Shown here: one piece after another, positions 644 to 9,261 of the stretch
Numbering within the stretch: position 1 is the stretch's first letter
Layout of the letters: each line of letters begins with the position of its first letter
The notes under the pieces: model-generated
What the model was told of the DNA's origin: nothing
What the model saw: only the letters and a program-made list of their open reading frames with translations
Databases searched by the model: none
Translations under genes and position numbers: made by a program
DNA from: Pseudomonadota bacterium
GTDB lineage: Bacteria; Desulfobacterota; Desulfarculia; Desulfarculales; Desulfarculaceae
Assembly: GCA_018819925.1 (NCBI GenBank)
Contig: JAHJPG010000017.1
Location: forward strand, 1-50,524
Direction of reading: 5' to 3'
DNA length: 50,524 bases

Positions 644-1249
644 TTACTTGCCGCCGTAACGCTCCCAGTGCAGCAGGTTGTCCAGGGCCCGCTTGGGCAC
701 GAAGTGCTTGCCGCTTTCATCGCGCCAATACCGAATGACCTCCTTGCCCTGGTCTCCGGGCTCCAGGTCCACGGCCACCGGCTCCTCGGCCGGGCGGCCC
801 AGGGCGATCACCGAATCCAGCTTCAGCTCCGGGGGCAGTCCCAGCAGTTTGGCGGCCCGGGGGGCGTTGACGCTGCGTATCCAGCAGGAGCCCACCCCTT
901 GGTCAACGGCCAACAGGAGCATGGCCATCACCGCCGCGCCCAGGTCGAAGTCGCTGCCGATGGGCGGGAGGTACTCCTGGCGCACGCACACCACGATGTA
1001 GGCGGTGGGGCGGTGCTGGGGATCAGGGGTGCCCACCGGGGCGGTGTAGGCGGCCCATTTGAGGCAGTCGAAAATGTCCTCGCGGACCCCGGGCTCGGTG
1101 ACCACCACGTATTCCAGGGGTTGCAAATTGGCCGCCGCCGGGGAAAGGCGGGCCGCTGCCACCAACTCGCGCAGCAGGGCCGGGTCCATGGGGTCTTGGG
1201 CGAAGCTGCGCACCGTGCGCCGGGCCAAGATGGCTTGACGGGTTTCCAT
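644..1249 (-). CDS. Nitroreductase family protein
   Basis: This 201-residue protein fits the FMN-dependent nitroreductase fold, which reduces nitro groups, quinones or related acceptors with NAD(P)H. The N-terminus carries the usual RRTVRSF phosphate-binding stretch (residues 10-16), followed by the LSPAAANLQPLEYVVV segment typical of the family and a GSCWIRSV-like motif in the middle. There is no signal peptide. It begins 10 bp after the stop of the IspH-UbiA gene on the same strand and so is probably the last gene of a dus, ispH-ubiA, nitroreductase operon. The true substrate cannot be read from sequence. Confidence 0.85.
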   Translation of the reverse strand: METRQAILARRTVRSFAQDPMDPALLRELVAAARLSPAAANLQPLEYVVVTEPGVREDIFDCLKWAAYTAPVGTPDPQHRPTAYIVVCVRQEYLPPIGSDFDLGAAVMAMLLLAVDQGVGSCWIRSVNAPRAAKLLGLPPELKLDSVIALGRPAEEPVAVDLEPGDQGKEVIRYWRDESGKHFVPKRALDNLLHWERYGGK

Positions 1250-1259
1250 GTTGCCCTCC

Positions 1260-3002
1260 TTAAAGAATCCACCAGGCCAGGGCCAATACCCCGGCCAGCC
1301 AGAAGTTGAAATCCACCAGCGCCTCGCTCATGGCCCCGGGCAGCATGTCCCGCCGGGAGTGGACCCGTTGCATCAGGGCCATCCCTGCGATGGGCGCCAG
1401 CAGCAAGAAACACAAAACCGCCGGGGGCCCGGCCAGGGGAGCCAGGATCATCAGCAGGGCCAGGGCGGCCAAGAGCCAATTGACCAGGCGCAGGGTGACC
1501 GCCTCGCCAAGCATGATGGGAATGGTCTCCTTGCCCACCACCAGATCGCCCTGCACATCCAGCACGTCGAAGACGGCGCAGCGGCAAAACACCAGCACCG
1601 CGGTGTAGACCATGGCCAAGCCCAAGGCCAGAGGGTGCCAGACCTCGAGGCTAACCGCGGGCAACAGGGCCACCACCACCGCCCAGGCCCCAGCGGCGCT
1701 GGCCGTCTTGGAACCGGGAATGTCCTTGAGGCTGGCGAAGCCCAGGCGGTCCCGCAGGGCCCGGGGCACCACCGGCACCGAGTAGAGGATGCCCAAGAGG
1801 CTCATGAGACCCACGATGATAAAAGGCAGCAGCCCCAGCAGGGCGCAAAGGGCCAAGGCGGCGGCGGCGCTGAACACCCCCGAGCCGATCAAAAACCCCC
1901 GGTGCTTGGCCAAAAAATGGGCCCGGTCCGGGTCGTTGTATTGCCCGGCCTCCTTGTCCAGAAAGTGGTTGAGGATGTGCATGGCGTAGATATAGAAAAA
2001 GGCGGCCGCCGCCAGGGCCGGATGGGGGGCCAGGCCCTGCAGCAGGCTGGCCGCGCAGGCCATGCCCACCGCGCCCAGGGCCACCAATAGCTGGCTACGC
2101 ACGAAGAAGCGGAACACCCGGCGCAGCAGGTAGGAGCCGCCGCCCTCGCGTTCGCTACGGATGGCCACCAGTTCCCTTAGCACCCGCTTGATGAGCCAGT
2201 TGGGGGTGGAGGCCCCGGCGGTGACACCCACCAGGTCCAGACGGGCCAGCTGCTCCCGGGGCAGCTCCTCCTCGGTCTCCACCGCGAACACCGGCTTGTT
2301 TGACTCGGCGGCCACCTGGGCCAGCCGCTGGGTGTTGCCGCTGTTGCGCCCGCCCACCACCACCACCCCGTCCACCTCGTGGGCCAGGCTTTTCACCTCG
2401 TCCTGGCGGCGGTGAGTGGCCTCGCAGATGGTTTCATGCACCTCCACCGGGCCGAAGCGCCGGCCCAAGGCCCTCACGATGGCCGCGAAGTTCTCGCTGG
2501 TCTGGGTGGTTTGGGCCACCACCACCACCTCGCGCAGCTCGGGCAGCTCGGCCACTTCTCCGGGCCGGGAAACCACCCGTCCCCGGCTCTGGGCATGGCC
2601 CAACAGGCCCACCACCTCCGGGTGGCTGGCGTCGCCCACGATGATCACCTCGGCCCCGCGCTTGGCCGCCCGGGCGATGATGGCCTGCACCCTTATCACC
2701 CGGGGGCAGGTGCCCTCCACGATCTGGCTGAAGCCGGCCTGCTTGAGGCGGGCCTTGTCCTGGGGCGGCACCCCGTGGGCCCTTATGATCACCGTGCCGC
2801 CGGACACGCTGCCCGGCGGGGGCACCTCCTTGAGCACCTGGATGCCCTTGCTGGCTTGAAGCTCCAGCACCTGGGGGTTGTGGATCAAGGGGCCGTAGGT
2901 AAACACCGGGCCCTGGGCGTGGTGGGCCTGGGCCAGGGCCAGCTCCATGGCCCGGCGCACTCCCATGCAAAATCCGGCGTGGCGGGCCAGGCGAACCCTC
3001 AT
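1260..3002 (-). CDS. ispH: IspH (HMBPP reductase) fused to a UbiA-family prenyltransferase
   Basis: The 580-residue product has two domains. Residues 1-285 are IspH, the 4Fe-4S enzyme that reduces HMBPP to IPP and DMAPP at the end of the MEP pathway. The three cluster cysteines are present at C12 (GFCMGV), C99 (GTCPRV) and C193 (TICEAT), with H41, H76, H127 and E129 and the NSGNT and TAGASTPN motifs. Residues 295-580 form a multi-pass membrane UbiA-type prenyltransferase with the two Asp-rich motifs NHFLD (345-349) and FDVLDVQGD (478-486). The ATG at 3002 overlaps the preceding dus stop as ATGA; an upstream in-frame extension to 3395 overlaps dus, looks like shadow coding and is rejected. The acceptor of the prenyltransferase is unknown; a quinone precursor is one option. 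Confidence 0.88.
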   Translation of the reverse strand: MRVRLARHAGFCMGVRRAMELALAQAHHAQGPVFTYGPLIHNPQVLELQASKGIQVLKEVPPPGSVSGGTVIIRAHGVPPQDKARLKQAGFSQIVEGTCPRVIRVQAIIARAAKRGAEVIIVGDASHPEVVGLLGHAQSRGRVVSRPGEVAELPELREVVVVAQTTQTSENFAAIVRALGRRFGPVEVHETICEATHRRQDEVKSLAHEVDGVVVVGGRNSGNTQRLAQVAAESNKPVFAVETEEELPREQLARLDLVGVTAGASTPNWLIKRVLRELVAIRSEREGGGSYLLRRVFRFFVRSQLLVALGAVGMACAASLLQGLAPHPALAAAAFFYIYAMHILNHFLDKEAGQYNDPDRAHFLAKHRGFLIGSGVFSAAAALALCALLGLLPFIIVGLMSLLGILYSVPVVPRALRDRLGFASLKDIPGSKTASAAGAWAVVVALLPAVSLEVWHPLALGLAMVYTAVLVFCRCAVFDVLDVQGDLVVGKETIPIMLGEAVTLRLVNWLLAALALLMILAPLAGPPAVLCFLLLAPIAGMALMQRVHSRRDMLPGAMSEALVDFNFWLAGVLALAWWIL

Positions 3003-3964
3003 GCCGCTTGCTCCCGCTCCAGGAAAAAACGGTCGCACAGGGCCCACAGGGGCTCCAGTTCGCCACAGGCCCCGGCCTGGCGGCGGAACTGGGAGGCGCC
3101 GGGCAGGCCCCGGGAATACCACATCATGAATTGGCGCACGAAGTGCACCGCGTGGCCCTCGCCCCCCAGGCTTCGGGCCAGCTCCAGGTGCTCGGCCAGG
3201 GCCTGGCGCTTCATGGCCGGGGTCACCGGCTGGGGCTCGCGCCCGGCCAGCCGGGCGGCGGCCCGGTGGAATATCCAGGGGTCGCCCATGGCCCCCCGGC
3301 CGATCATCACCGCCGCGCAGCCGGTTTCGGCCAGCATGCGCACCGCGTCCCGGCCGCTGGTCACGTCGCCGTTGCCGATCACCGGCACCGGACACCAGGA
3401 GGCCAGGCGCTTTATGGCCGCCCAGTCGGCCCGGCCGGAAAAGCCCTGGCGGGTGGTGCGGGCGTGCAGGGTGATGGCCCGCGCCCCGGCCTTGACCAGG
3501 CGCGGCACCAACTCCTCGGTGATGTCGTGGCTGGGGCCCAGGCGGATCTTGACGCTCACCGGCAGGGCCGAGGCCTCGGCCACCGCGGCCATGATCTCCA
3601 CCGCCCTGTCCGGGTCTTCCAACAGGGCGCTGCCCGCGCCGGGGCGGCGCACCTTTTTGGCGGGGCAGCCCATGTTCACGTCCAGGGCGTCCACCTCCAG
3701 GCGGCTGGCAATGGCGGCGGCCTGGGCCATCTGCTGGGGGTCGGCCCCAAAGATCTGCAAGACCAGGGGCCGCTCGCCGGGCAGGATCCGGGTGAGGCGC
3801 AGGGTTTGGGGCTGGTGGCGCAACAGGCCGGGCGCGCTGACCATTTCGCTGTAGACCATGGACGCGCCGGCCCGGCGGGCCATTAGCCGGAAGGCAGGGC
3901 CCGACACCCCGGCCATGGGCGCGGCCACGAATGGTGTTTGCAGTGTAAGCCCCAGTAGTTGCAT
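2999..3964 (-). CDS. dus: tRNA-dihydrouridine synthase (Dus family)
   Basis: This 321-residue FMN enzyme reduces specific uridines in tRNA to dihydrouridine. It opens with the TIM-barrel APMAGVSGPAFR motif near residue 15, has DVNMGCPAKKV with catalytic C100, the KIRLG strand, the TLHARTT motif and the phosphate-binding IGNGDV and MIGRGAMGDPW segments. The length is normal for DusB-like enzymes. Its stop overlaps the start of ispH-ubiA by 4 bp, so the two are likely translationally coupled. Which Dus subtype it is cannot be settled by eye, so no subtype letter is given. Confidence 0.92.
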   Translation of the reverse strand: MQLLGLTLQTPFVAAPMAGVSGPAFRLMARRAGASMVYSEMVSAPGLLRHQPQTLRLTRILPGERPLVLQIFGADPQQMAQAAAIASRLEVDALDVNMGCPAKKVRRPGAGSALLEDPDRAVEIMAAVAEASALPVSVKIRLGPSHDITEELVPRLVKAGARAITLHARTTRQGFSGRADWAAIKRLASWCPVPVIGNGDVTSGRDAVRMLAETGCAAVMIGRGAMGDPWIFHRAAARLAGREPQPVTPAMKRQALAEHLELARSLGGEGHAVHFVRQFMMWYSRGLPGASQFRRQAGACGELEPLWALCDRFFLEREQAA

Positions 3965-5050: not shown

Positions 5051-7612
5051 ATGAGAGAATCCTCCGTTAGCCCGGAAATGGCGGATAAAAGCAAGCTCTA
5101 CCTGGGCCTGGACGTTGGCTCGGTCAGCTTGGACACGGTGGTGCTGGACGCTGACGGCCAGATGCTTTTGGCCGAATACACCCGCACCCGGGGCCGGCCC
5201 CTGGCCGTGGCCGCCGAGGTGCTGGGCCGGGTCCTGGAGCGCTTTGGCCGGGAGTCCTTCGCCGCAGTGGCGGTCACCGGCAGCGGAGCCCCCACCGTGG
5301 CCCCTCTGTTGGGAGGGGAGGTGGTGAACGAGATCATCGCCGCCGCCCGGGGGGTGCAGCGGCTCTGCCCCCAGACCCACACCATCATCGACATGGGCGG
5401 CGAGGACGCCAAGCTGATCCTGGTGAGCCCCGGGTCCGGCGGCCAGTTGCGCATCGAAGACTTCGCCATGAACACCATGTGCGCGGCGGGCACCGGCTCC
5501 TTCTTGGACCAGCAGTCCCACCGGCTACAGCTGACCATCGAGCAGTTTTCCGAGATCGCCATGGGCAGCGCCAACCCGCCCCGCCTGGCCGGGCGTTGCT
5601 CTGTCTTCGCCAAGAGCGACATGATCCACTTGCAGCAGGAAGCCACCCCGGACTACGACATCGTGGCCGGCCTGTGCTTCGCCATGGCCCGCAACCTCAA
5701 GTCCAACATAGCCAAGGGCAAGAAGGTGGTGCCGCCGGTGGCCTTCATTGGAGGGGTGGCGGCCAACCAGGGGGTGCACCGGGCCCTCAAGGAGATCCTG
5801 GGCCTGGAGGAAGGCGAGCTGTTGGTTCCGCCGGATTTCGGCTGCGTGGGAGCCCTGGGCGCGGCCCTGTTCGTCCAGGACAAGGGCTTGGTTGCCCCTC
5901 TGGCCGGGCTGGAGGCCTTGGAGCAGCGAGCGGCCGAGACCGCCTCGGAAACCAAGCGGCTGCCCAGGCTCAAGCTGGGAGACCACCACCGCGACAAGGA
6001 CCTGCAAAAGATCCGGGTCCCGGAAGGACATCTGACCGGCTACCTGGGGGTGGACGTGGGCTCCATCTCCACCAACGTGGTGGTCATCGATGAAAAGGGC
6101 CGGGTGCTCTCCAAGCAATACCTGCTCACGGCGGGGCGCCCCCTGGAAGCGGTCAAGGAGGGCCTGCGCCTGGCCGGGGCCGAGATCGGCGACCGGGTGA
6201 CCATCCTGGGGGCGGGCACCACCGGCTCGGGCCGCTACCTCACCGCCGACTTCATCGGGGCGGACATCGTGCGCAACGAGATTACCGCCCAGGCCACCGC
6301 CGCCGCCCACATCGACCCGGAGGTGGACACCATCTTCGAGATCGGCGGCCAGGACTCCAAGTACATCTCCCTGGAAAACGGGGCCATCGTCGATTTCATG
6401 ATGAACAAGGTCTGCGCGGCGGGCACCGGCAGCTTTCTGGAAGAGCAGGCGGAAAAGCTGGGCATTCAGATCAAGGACGAGTTCGGGGCCAGGGCCCTGG
6501 GCGCGCCCAACCCGGTGCGCATGGGCGAGCGCTGCACCGTGTTCATGGAGTCGGACCTGGTGTCGCACCAGGCCTCCGGGGCCGAGATAGACGACCTGGT
6601 GGGCGGACTGAGCTACTCCATCGTGCATAACTACTTGAACAAGGTGGTTGAGGACCGCAGGATCGGCAATCGCATCTTCTACCAGGGGGCCACGGCGGCC
6701 AACCAGGGCATAGTGGCCGCCTTCGAGGCGGTGACCGGCCGGCCCATCATCGTGCCGCCCCACCACGACGTCACCGGGGCCATCGGGGCGGCCCTGCTGT
6801 CCATGCGCGAGCGCACCTGGAAAGAGAGCTCCTTCAAGGGCTTCGCGGTGAGCAAGACCGGCTACGAGATCACCACCTTCGAGTGCTCCGGCTGCCCCAA
6901 CACCTGCTCCATCCGCAAGGTGAAGGTGGAGGGCCTGGCCAAGCCCTTGTTCTACGGCTCACGCTGTGAAAAATACGACGTGGACCGCGACAGCAAGGTG
7001 CGCGAGGACATCCCCGACCTGTTCGCCGAGCGCGAGGAGTTATTGCTGTCCTACGCGGGGCCGGTGGAACCGGGGCGCAAAAAAGGCGTGGTGGGCATTC
7101 CCCGCACCATGTTCTTTAGGGAGTGGTTGCCATTTTTCAGCGCCTTTTTGAACCGCCTGGGCTTTGAGGTGCGGGTCTCGGGCCCCAGCACCAAGCGCCT
7201 GATCCACAAAGGGGTGGAGGCGGTGGTCAACGAGCCCTGCTTCCCGGTGAAGGTGGCCCACGGCCACCTGGCCGAGCTTATCGAGGCCGGCTTGGATAAG
7301 ATTCTTTTGCCCTCCCTGATCAACGTGCCCGCTCCGGGCAACGAGCTGACCTACGGCCAAGTGTGCCCCTACGCCCAGACCCTGTGCTACACCGCCCCGG
7401 CGGCCCTGGACTTCGGCCAGAGCGAACTCATCGACACCCCCCTGCGTTTCGGCTACGACGCCGACACCATGCGCGGCGACCTCAAGGCCCTGGCCAAGCG
7501 TCTGGGGGCCGGTTCCCGGGGCTGGGCCAGGCCATCGCCGCCGGCTGGGAGGCCCAGCGCGACTTCAACCGCCGCCTGGTGGAGCGGGGCCGTGAGGTCT
7601 TGGCCTCCATGA
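5051..7612 (+). CDS. BcrA/BadF-type acyl-CoA reductase/dehydratase activase, N-terminal part (frameshifted)
   Basis: This frame encodes two tandem BcrA/D-type ATPase domains and the start of the DUF2229 region. Such proteins hydrolyse ATP to drive low-potential electrons into benzoyl-CoA reductase or 2-hydroxyacyl-CoA dehydratase systems. Domain 1 has LGLDVGSVSLD (residues 18-28), the cluster cysteine in MCAAGTGSF (about C144) and GRCSVFAKSD; domain 2 repeats these as DVGSIST (about 335), VCAAGTGSF (about C455) and ERCTVFMESD. A conserved IPRTMFFREWLPFF segment follows. Family-like sequence ends at GCC 7508-7510; after that this frame gives unrelated residues until 7612, while the expected protein continues in the -1 frame. 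The intact product would be about 1,400 residues, the normal size for the long form. Confidence 0.85.
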   Translation: MRESSVSPEMADKSKLYLGLDVGSVSLDTVVLDADGQMLLAEYTRTRGRPLAVAAEVLGRVLERFGRESFAAVAVTGSGAPTVAPLLGGEVVNEIIAAARGVQRLCPQTHTIIDMGGEDAKLILVSPGSGGQLRIEDFAMNTMCAAGTGSFLDQQSHRLQLTIEQFSEIAMGSANPPRLAGRCSVFAKSDMIHLQQEATPDYDIVAGLCFAMARNLKSNIAKGKKVVPPVAFIGGVAANQGVHRALKEILGLEEGELLVPPDFGCVGALGAALFVQDKGLVAPLAGLEALEQRAAETASETKRLPRLKLGDHHRDKDLQKIRVPEGHLTGYLGVDVGSISTNVVVIDEKGRVLSKQYLLTAGRPLEAVKEGLRLAGAEIGDRVTILGAGTTGSGRYLTADFIGADIVRNEITAQATAAAHIDPEVDTIFEIGGQDSKYISLENGAIVDFMMNKVCAAGTGSFLEEQAEKLGIQIKDEFGARALGAPNPVRMGERCTVFMESDLVSHQASGAEIDDLVGGLSYSIVHNYLNKVVEDRRIGNRIFYQGATAANQGIVAAFEAVTGRPIIVPPHHDVTGAIGAALLSMRERTWKESSFKGFAVSKTGYEITTFECSGCPNTCSIRKVKVEGLAKPLFYGSRCEKYDVDRDSKVREDIPDLFAEREELLLSYAGPVEPGRKKGVVGIPRTMFFREWLPFFSAFLNRLGFEVRVSGPSTKRLIHKGVEAVVNEPCFPVKVAHGHLAELIEAGLDKILLPSLINVPAPGNELTYGQVCPYAQTLCYTAPAALDFGQSELIDTPLRFGYDADTMRGDLKALAKRLGAGSRGWARPSPPAGRPSATSTAAWWSGAVRSWPP

Positions 7613-9261
7613 AGCCCGGGGATCGGGCCATGGTGGTGGTCAGCCGGCCCTACAACGGGGCCGATCCGGGGCTGAACCTGGGCATCCCTCAGAAGATGCG
7701 CCACCTGGGGGTGTTTCCCATACCCATGGACTTCCTGGATCTGGACCAGCACATGGGCCACCCCGAACTGGCCGAGATGTACTGGCGCTACGGCCAGAAG
7801 ATTCTGGCCTCGGCCCTTCAGGTGCGCCAGGATCCCCGCCTGCACGCGGTGTACATCACCAACTTCGGCTGCGGGCCCGACAGCTTCATCGGCCATTTCT
7901 TTAGGCGCATCATGGAGGGCAAGCCCTTCCTGGAGATCGAGATCGACGAGCACTCGGCCGACGTGGGGGCCATCACCCGCCTGGAGGCCTTCCTGGACTC
8001 CCTGGGCAACGTGACCACCGCCGCGCCCCAGGCCAAGCCGTCCCGCCGCCGGGACATCAAGCCCGGCAAGCGCACCATCTACATACCCCCCATGACCGAC
8101 CATTCGGTGGCGGTGGCCGCGGCGTTCGTCGCCTGCGGGGGCCATGCCGAGGTGCTGCCCGAAAGCGACCAGCGCACCCTGGAGTTGGGCCGGCGCTACA
8201 CCTCGGGCAAGGAGTGCTACCCCTGCGCCCTGACCGCCGGCGACCTCTTGAAGCTGCTCATGGACAGGGGGGTTCCCCCCCGGGAGGTGGCCTTTTTCAT
8301 GCCCGGGGGCACCGGCCCCTGCCGCTTCGGGCAGTACCATCGCTATCACCGCCTGATCTTGGACGAGTTGGGCTACGAGGAGGCCCGCATCTATTCGCCG
8401 GACCAGTCGGAGGTGTTCTACAAGGAACTGGGCATGGTGGGGGGCAGCGATTTCACCCGCCTGGCCTGGCAAGGCCTGGTGGCGGTGGACCTGCTCAAGA
8501 AGGCAATGCACGAAACCCGGCCCTACGAGGCCCACCCCGGCGACAGCGATGAACTCTACGGCCACTTTCTGCAAAAAGTGGCCGCAACCATGGGGCGCAA
8601 GGGCGACCTCAAACCGGTGATGGCCGAGGCCCGGGCCGAGTTCGAGGCGCTGGTGCGCTCCGGGGAGAACCACCGGCCCCTGGTGGGGGTGGTGGGCGAG
8701 ATCTACACCCGGGCCAACCGTTTCGCCAACGAGGACATAGTTCGCACCATCGAGGAGTTGGGCGGCGAGGCCTGGACCCCCACCATCGGCGAGTGGGTGC
8801 TCTACACCAACCACACCTCCGCGTTGCGGGCCAAGAAGCTCAAGAGGCGCCAGGCCCTTATCAGCACCCTGCTGGAGAACTACTTCCAGCACAAGGACGA
8901 GCGCACCCTGGCCCAGCCCTGGGCAGGGGCGCTGAAGACCCTGCACGAGCCCGAGGTCAAACAGGTGCTGAGGATGGCCCATCCCTATCTGGAGCCCAGC
9001 TTCGAGGGCGAGGCCATCCTCTCCCTGGGCAAGAGCCGGGACATGCTCAACCGGGGGGCTTGTGGGGTTGTCAACGTGATCCCCTTCACCTGCATGCCCG
9101 GCACCATCGTCAACGCCCTCATGAAGCGCTTCCGCGAGGACCACGGCAACCTGCCTTTTCTGCCCATGGCCATGGACGGCCAGGAGCAGAGCGGCAGCCG
9201 CATCCGCCTGGAGGCTTTCATGCACCAAGTGCGCCAGTTCCAACAGGCCCGCGAGAACTGA
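7513..9261 (+). CDS. BcrA/BadF-type activase, C-terminal part (continues after frameshift)
   Basis: This is the in-frame continuation of the activase after one base appears to be missing at 7511-7512. It resumes with FPGLGQAIAAGWEAQ and runs to a TGA at 9259-9261. The segment belongs to the CoA-substrate-specific activase-related region (DUF2229 and CoA_E_activ-like), with VSRPYNGADPGLNLGIP, NFGCGPDSF, SGKECYPCALT and FMPGGTGPCRFGQ motifs; the Cys residues are conserved in this family as likely cluster ligands. The start given is the first codon after the break, not a real start codon. Whether the break is a mutation, a sequencing error or a recoding site is not decidable here. Confidence 0.8.
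   Translation, partial: FPGLGQAIAAGWEAQRDFNRRLVERGREVLASMKPGDRAMVVVSRPYNGADPGLNLGIPQKMRHLGVFPIPMDFLDLDQHMGHPELAEMYWRYGQKILASALQVRQDPRLHAVYITNFGCGPDSFIGHFFRRIMEGKPFLEIEIDEHSADVGAITRLEAFLDSLGNVTTAAPQAKPSRRRDIKPGKRTIYIPPMTDHSVAVAAAFVACGGHAEVLPESDQRTLELGRRYTSGKECYPCALTAGDLLKLLMDRGVPPREVAFFMPGGTGPCRFGQYHRYHRLILDELGYEEARIYSPDQSEVFYKELGMVGGSDFTRLAWQGLVAVDLLKKAMHETRPYEAHPGDSDELYGHFLQKVAATMGRKGDLKPVMAEARAEFEALVRSGENHRPLVGVVGEIYTRANRFANEDIVRTIEELGGEAWTPTIGEWVLYTNHTSALRAKKLKRRQALISTLLENYFQHKDERTLAQPWAGALKTLHEPEVKQVLRMAHPYLEPSFEGEAILSLGKSRDMLNRGACGVVNVIPFTCMPGTIVNALMKRFREDHGNLPFLPMAMDGQEQSGSRIRLEAFMHQVRQFQQAREN

Follow-up and report, generated by a model that had tools for sequence, protein, structure and literature searches.

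What does a membrane domain of the UbiA prenyltransferase family do when it is made as the C-terminal half of IspH? IspH, an essential and oxygen-sensitive enzyme that is also a drug target, normally occurs as a separate protein. In the stretch of DNA considered here (the window, 50,524 nucleotides) a single gene specifies both, and the membrane half might be an enzyme in its own right, a regulator of IspH, or a module in its service.

A single frame for two domains

1260..3002, minus strand: ispH-ubiA fusion gene, 580 aa (ATG at 3002-3000, stop at 1262-1260)
2154..3002, minus strand: IspH half, residues 1-283 (Pfam LYTB; residues invariant in 109 fusions; model compared with E. coli IspH:HMBPP)
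2121..2153, minus strand: junction, residues 284-294 (open frame; pLDDT about 79-89 in the model)
1263..2120, minus strand: UbiA-family membrane half, residues 295-580 (Pfam UbiA, structural matches, TM-like segments, motif alignment)

From 3002 down to 1260 the window holds 580 codons and a stop, without internal stop or frameshift. The IspH domain is N-terminal and the UbiA-like domain C-terminal, as in the known IspH-UbiA hybrids. The first occupies residues 3-278 (Pfam PF02401, LYTB/IspH; E 3.7e-86, 289.2 bits against a cut-off of 24.5) and also lies above the NCBIfam cut-off for TIGR00216 (266.6 bits against 187.85); the second occupies residues 310-551 (Pfam PF01040; E 9.5e-10, 38.6 bits against a gathering cut-off of 34.2), and the fusion scored 46.9 bits with the same profile when the genome was searched. 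An AlphaFold2 model, computed from the window protein and 56 relatives, has a mean pLDDT of 89 and a pTM of 0.80. The uninterrupted frame and the two Pfam domains thus bear out the initial annotation, which had read IspH and a UbiA-family domain in one frame.

That annotation named a missed stop or frameshift at residues 285-300 as an observation that would undo it. The region is uninterrupted here, and relatives agree: a protein search of 395 genomes of the phylum gave stop-free matches along the whole length in four members of the genus (identity 77-87%; a 4.48-Mb single contig among them) and, at lower identity, in well over 100 more. The open frame and the full-length relatives rule out a missed stop or artefact at this place. 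More generally, an error of sequencing or assembly, or a recent chance fusion, can be dismissed with near certainty: nothing was found in its favor, the same frame recurs in over 100 genomes, some of them single-contig assemblies, and the fusion has already been published (PMC4746011). It is a genuine and ancient fusion, found widely across the phylum.

The window gene is a member of that published family, and the fusion itself is not new. In 2015 Rao et al. (Chem Sci; PMC4746011) described 47 IspH-UbiA hybrids in sulfate reducers, mainly Desulfobacterales, and proposed that the UbiA domain localizes IspH to the membrane and raises the local concentration of IPP/DMAPP for a prenyltransferase; an attempt at expression of the hybrids gave mostly truncated, insoluble protein. 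Apart from one mention in 2025, no later papers on IspH-UbiA function were found in the open-access literature. Three things go beyond the published descriptions found: this UbiA subfamily was never detected unfused, solo IspH proteins are nested within fused clades, and the conservation of IspH residues contrasts with that of the Mg2+-ligand positions.

The IspH half

The cysteines of the [4Fe-4S] cluster (C12, C99, C193) and the residues of the HMBPP site (H41, H76, H127, E129, T166, S221, N223, S265) are all in place, so that the description of this half as a fully motif-bearing IspH stands. All eleven are invariant in 109 of 109 distinct fusions, a sample of whole genomes gathered without patterns and with close relatives counted singly rather than by clade; a pattern-selected set would have been biased upwards for such counts, and the pattern-free one was used instead. 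In the model, residues 1-283 adopt the IspH trefoil fold and match E. coli IspH with bound HMBPP (3ke8) at Z 33.0 and rmsd 1.6, with 279 residues aligned.

Nor does the genome hold a spare. The assembly comprises 4.03 Mb in 145 contigs and is 96.4% complete; within it the fusion supplies the sole ispH, and a search for a second, suggested at the outset, found none. The other isoprenoid genes are one for IspG and two for polyprenyl diphosphate synthases.

The UbiA half: fold and ligand positions

Nine TM-like segments lie within residues 305-580, in keeping with the 8-9 of the UbiA fold. Residues 302-580 of the model match ApUbiA (4od4) at Z 19.9 over 257 residues, and the UbiA half matches AfUbiA at Z 19.4; no direct sequence match to the solved UbiA structures was found. 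Since fold and Pfam place it there, this half is filed as a member of the superfamily: on sequence and predicted structure it is a UbiA-fold domain and a putative prenyltransferase.

In AfUbiA, Mg2+ is bound by N68, D72, D198 and D202, D76 being too distant for a direct ligand (PMC4106721). The corresponding positions here are N345, D349, D482 and D486, by a mapping that rests on an alignment to the other UbiA proteins encoded in this genome and on where the motifs fall in the model, rather than on residue-level superposition. The initial annotation credited this half with both Asp-rich motifs. The second is intact (DXXXD, as D482-VQG-D486); the first (N345-HFL-D349-KEA-G353) departs from the consensus NDXXDXXXD, keeping N and the D at N+4 and lacking D at N+1 and N+8. 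Archaeal UbiA homologs likewise depart from that consensus (PMC9835599).

One way to understand this half, the ‘Rosetta stone’ reading of Rao et al. (2015), is as a working prenyltransferase that needs Mg2+, serves an acceptor of its own and is fed by the DMAPP/IPP that IspH makes or by products of the polyprenyl synthases; the fusion would then be a bifunctional enzyme. The alignment of N345, D349, D482 and D486 with the UbiA ligand positions (AfUbiA, PMC4106721) favors this, as do the conserved cavity residues: H342 is kept in 102, R474 in 101 and E492 in 99 of the 109 fusions. Both halves are also under purifying selection, of similar strength in close relatives (omega 0.19 vs 0.22, and 0.33 vs 0.26; rough estimates, owing to strong GC bias).

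The ligands themselves speak less clearly for catalysis. N345 is kept in 97/109 and D486 in 106/109 fusions, D349 in 80/109 and D482 in 60/109, and the four occur together in only 38/109. D is found at N+8 in only 10/109, and at N+1 it is outside the eight commonest residues. In two divergent fusions (L159, from genome G028, and L158, from G032) most motif residues are gone, including most Mg2+ ligands, and a membrane domain of similar length persists, with 7-8 TM-like segments. The conserved cavity residues argue that in most lineages the UbiA half still binds something there; the bifunctional reading as a whole is possible but not the one we would choose.

Distribution and probable loss of the UbiA half

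If the UbiA half were an independent enzyme, its failure to turn up as a separate gene would count against that reading. A profile of this half matched 153 of 390 genomes of the phylum, a figure in which a few of the weakest matches are probably other UbiA proteins and from which some very divergent fusions are missing; G028 is such a case, with no profile match yet an IspH frame that runs 291 residues beyond the GAST motif, and is thus fused. Each of the 80 best genome-contig loci either carries IspH and UbiA in a single frame or is truncated where its contig ends. Two apparent stand-alone halves (G278 and G113) were rejected, both being cut at contig ends, and no unfused member of the subfamily was detected among the strong matches in the 153 genomes and the 80 best loci.

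Some loci stand apart. Two carry outlying taxonomic labels, Nitrospiraceae (L135) and Zixiibacteriota (L140); each comes from a metagenome bin, and its label is taken as given. In another (L233, from G022; 1489-3273, minus strand) the frame of the IspH part differs from that of most of the UbiA half and stops intervene, the result of sequencing error or of a decaying UbiA half. No IspH match was found in G358 (same genus, 93% complete) or G089 (same family, 99% complete), which is either an assembly gap or true absence.

IspH, for its part, is often alone. The unfused proteins do not form a single group when 76 IspH domains are placed in a tree: nine changes of state are needed, at least six of them forced by well-supported branches. 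Solo G015 lies within the fused Desulfarculaceae (support 99/99); solo G037 stands beside fused G106 and is grouped with fused G211 (100/96 and 100/100); solo G210 is inside a fused group (100/99); solo G156, a weaker case of nesting, is sister to the fused L048 and L049 (100/91). In the DNA checked, no UbiA half lies beside the solo ispH of these four genomes, and all four are absent from the 153 that match the UbiA-half profile. The simplest reading of these sequences is that the UbiA half has been lost repeatedly, on three or more occasions, and no copy was detected elsewhere; repeated gain is a less likely alternative on this unrooted tree. Such apparent loss without replacement is not what one would expect of a bifunctional enzyme.

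Gene neighborhood

2999..3964, minus strand: dusB (tRNA-dihydrouridine synthase), immediately upstream, with a 4-base overlap with the ispH start
644..1249, minus strand: nitroreductase-family gene, 10 bases downstream of the fusion

A dedicated acceptor might be betrayed by the genes nearby. dusB is upstream of the fusion in 44 of 88 related loci. Directly downstream, a gene for a GT2 glycosyltransferase adjoins or overlaps the fusion's 3' end in 35 of the 88 (for example L085:6885-7712 and L120:6858-7724), and such an enzyme could act on a prenylated product of a bifunctional protein. The downstream neighbors vary among lineages, which tells against the bifunctional reading: in several Desulfarculaceae relatives the nitroreductase gene occupies the position found here, replacing GT2, and L039, L047 and L050 have other neighbors, including a deaminase. 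With no neighbor common to all lineages, gene context names no acceptor.

The initial annotation suggested testing quinone precursors as substrates. The genome has three UbiA-family genes including the fusion; the other two score best as UbiA/MqnP-like and MenA-like, though below the specific equivalog cut-offs for MqnP and MenA. These separate genes fit a quinone prenyltransferase better, and that role is less likely for the UbiA half. The window also carries aprA (TIGR02061, 842.7 bits against a cut-off of 641.75), and the host is therefore probably a sulfate reducer.

Elsewhere in the window (5051-9261, plus strand) a BadF/BcrA-type CoA-enzyme activase gene lies in two frames, with a shift near 7519-7522; in the same-genus L057 a single uninterrupted frame encodes it (1320 aa, perhaps truncated where the locus ends). 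The split in the window reflects a sequencing error or a broken gene.

A proposed module in the service of IspH

A second perspective puts the UbiA half in the service of IspH, as a membrane dock with a possible prenyl-diphosphate site and not as an independent pathway enzyme. Judged from sequence comparison and the model, this is the reading we favor, with a probability of roughly 55%. Its grounds are that IspH is often alone and the UbiA half never detected alone, and that the IspH residues are fixed and the UbiA ligands eroding. That is, the IspH half would reduce HMBPP to IPP/DMAPP on the cytoplasmic side of the inner membrane; the UbiA half would hold it there, adjoining membrane users of prenyl diphosphates, having evolved as a module of IspH. 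In the window's lineage the cavity keeps residues suited to Mg2+ and prenyl diphosphate and may retain or act on a ligand of that kind; in others the ligand site would have eroded while the membrane domain was kept. An unusual small-prenyl transfer, the alternative offered in the initial annotation, may be possible in this protein, where the four ligand positions are kept; because they are often lost in other fusions, docking is favored as the shared function. Tethering of IspH to the membrane, as first suggested for this locus, gains support from the fusion frame, the sole ispH, the AlphaFold2 model and the structural match to the UbiA fold.

Some observations weigh against this reading. H342, N345, R474, D486 and E492 are conserved beyond the needs of a pure anchor, and the two halves are similarly constrained in close relatives; moreover, the profile missed the fused G028 and could likewise miss an unfused copy, were one divergent enough. 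A binding module with no prenyl transfer, which would sense prenyl diphosphates and control IspH by feedback, accommodates a conserved cavity with eroding metal ligands, as well as the strict association of the UbiA half with IspH. There is a precedent in human UBIAD1, which, as described in PMC9314443, controls HMG-CoA reductase, an isoprenoid-pathway reductase, by binding; a weak structural match to 8djk points the same way. Lineages that dispense with the UbiA half sit poorly with regulation of this kind, and this reading seems improbable.

A more specific version of the favored service role can be put forward tentatively. The UbiA half might be a repurposed prenyltransferase without free-standing catalysis: a membrane receptor for IspH that binds prenyl diphosphate in some lineages, where feedback or C5 channelling would be possible, and is a pseudoenzyme anchor in others. 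If so, it would be a bacterial analog of a UbiA protein that governs an isoprenoid-pathway reductase. On the favored reading, IspH would be bolted to the membrane in many bacteria of this large, anaerobic phylum. The survey also sharpens the ‘Rosetta stone’ link: fusions with all four Mg2+ ligands could be enzymes, while L158 and L159 look like anchors only.

Comparison with known systems

The window protein shares with the published IspH-UbiA hybrids (PMC4746011) its domain order, nine predicted TM helices, a probable sulfate-reducing host and a separate UbiA/MenA gene in the genome. It differs in that its relatives here are Desulfarculaceae and the published set is mainly Desulfobacterales; in addition, only one of the three Asp of NDXXDXXXD is present in its first motif, and two DXXXD repeats are described there. 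The IspH-RPS1 fusions (PMC4746011; NCBIfam PRK00087) likewise occur in anaerobes and have IspH as the N-terminal of two domains, but with ribosomal protein S1 as partner instead of a membrane domain; the window protein scores 284.8 bits against the PRK00087 cut-off of 624. With the archaeal ApUbiA and AfUbiA (PDB 4od4/4od5 and 4tq3/4tq4) the UbiA half has in common the fold and the four Mg2+-ligand positions; those proteins are unfused, identity is 14-17%, and D76 of AfUbiA (N+8) is absent here. The UBIAD1-HMG-CoA reductase complex offers an analogy only: there too a UbiA-fold protein is physically tied to a reductase of the isoprenoid pathway, but the partners are separate proteins, the reductase is unrelated and the system is eukaryotic.
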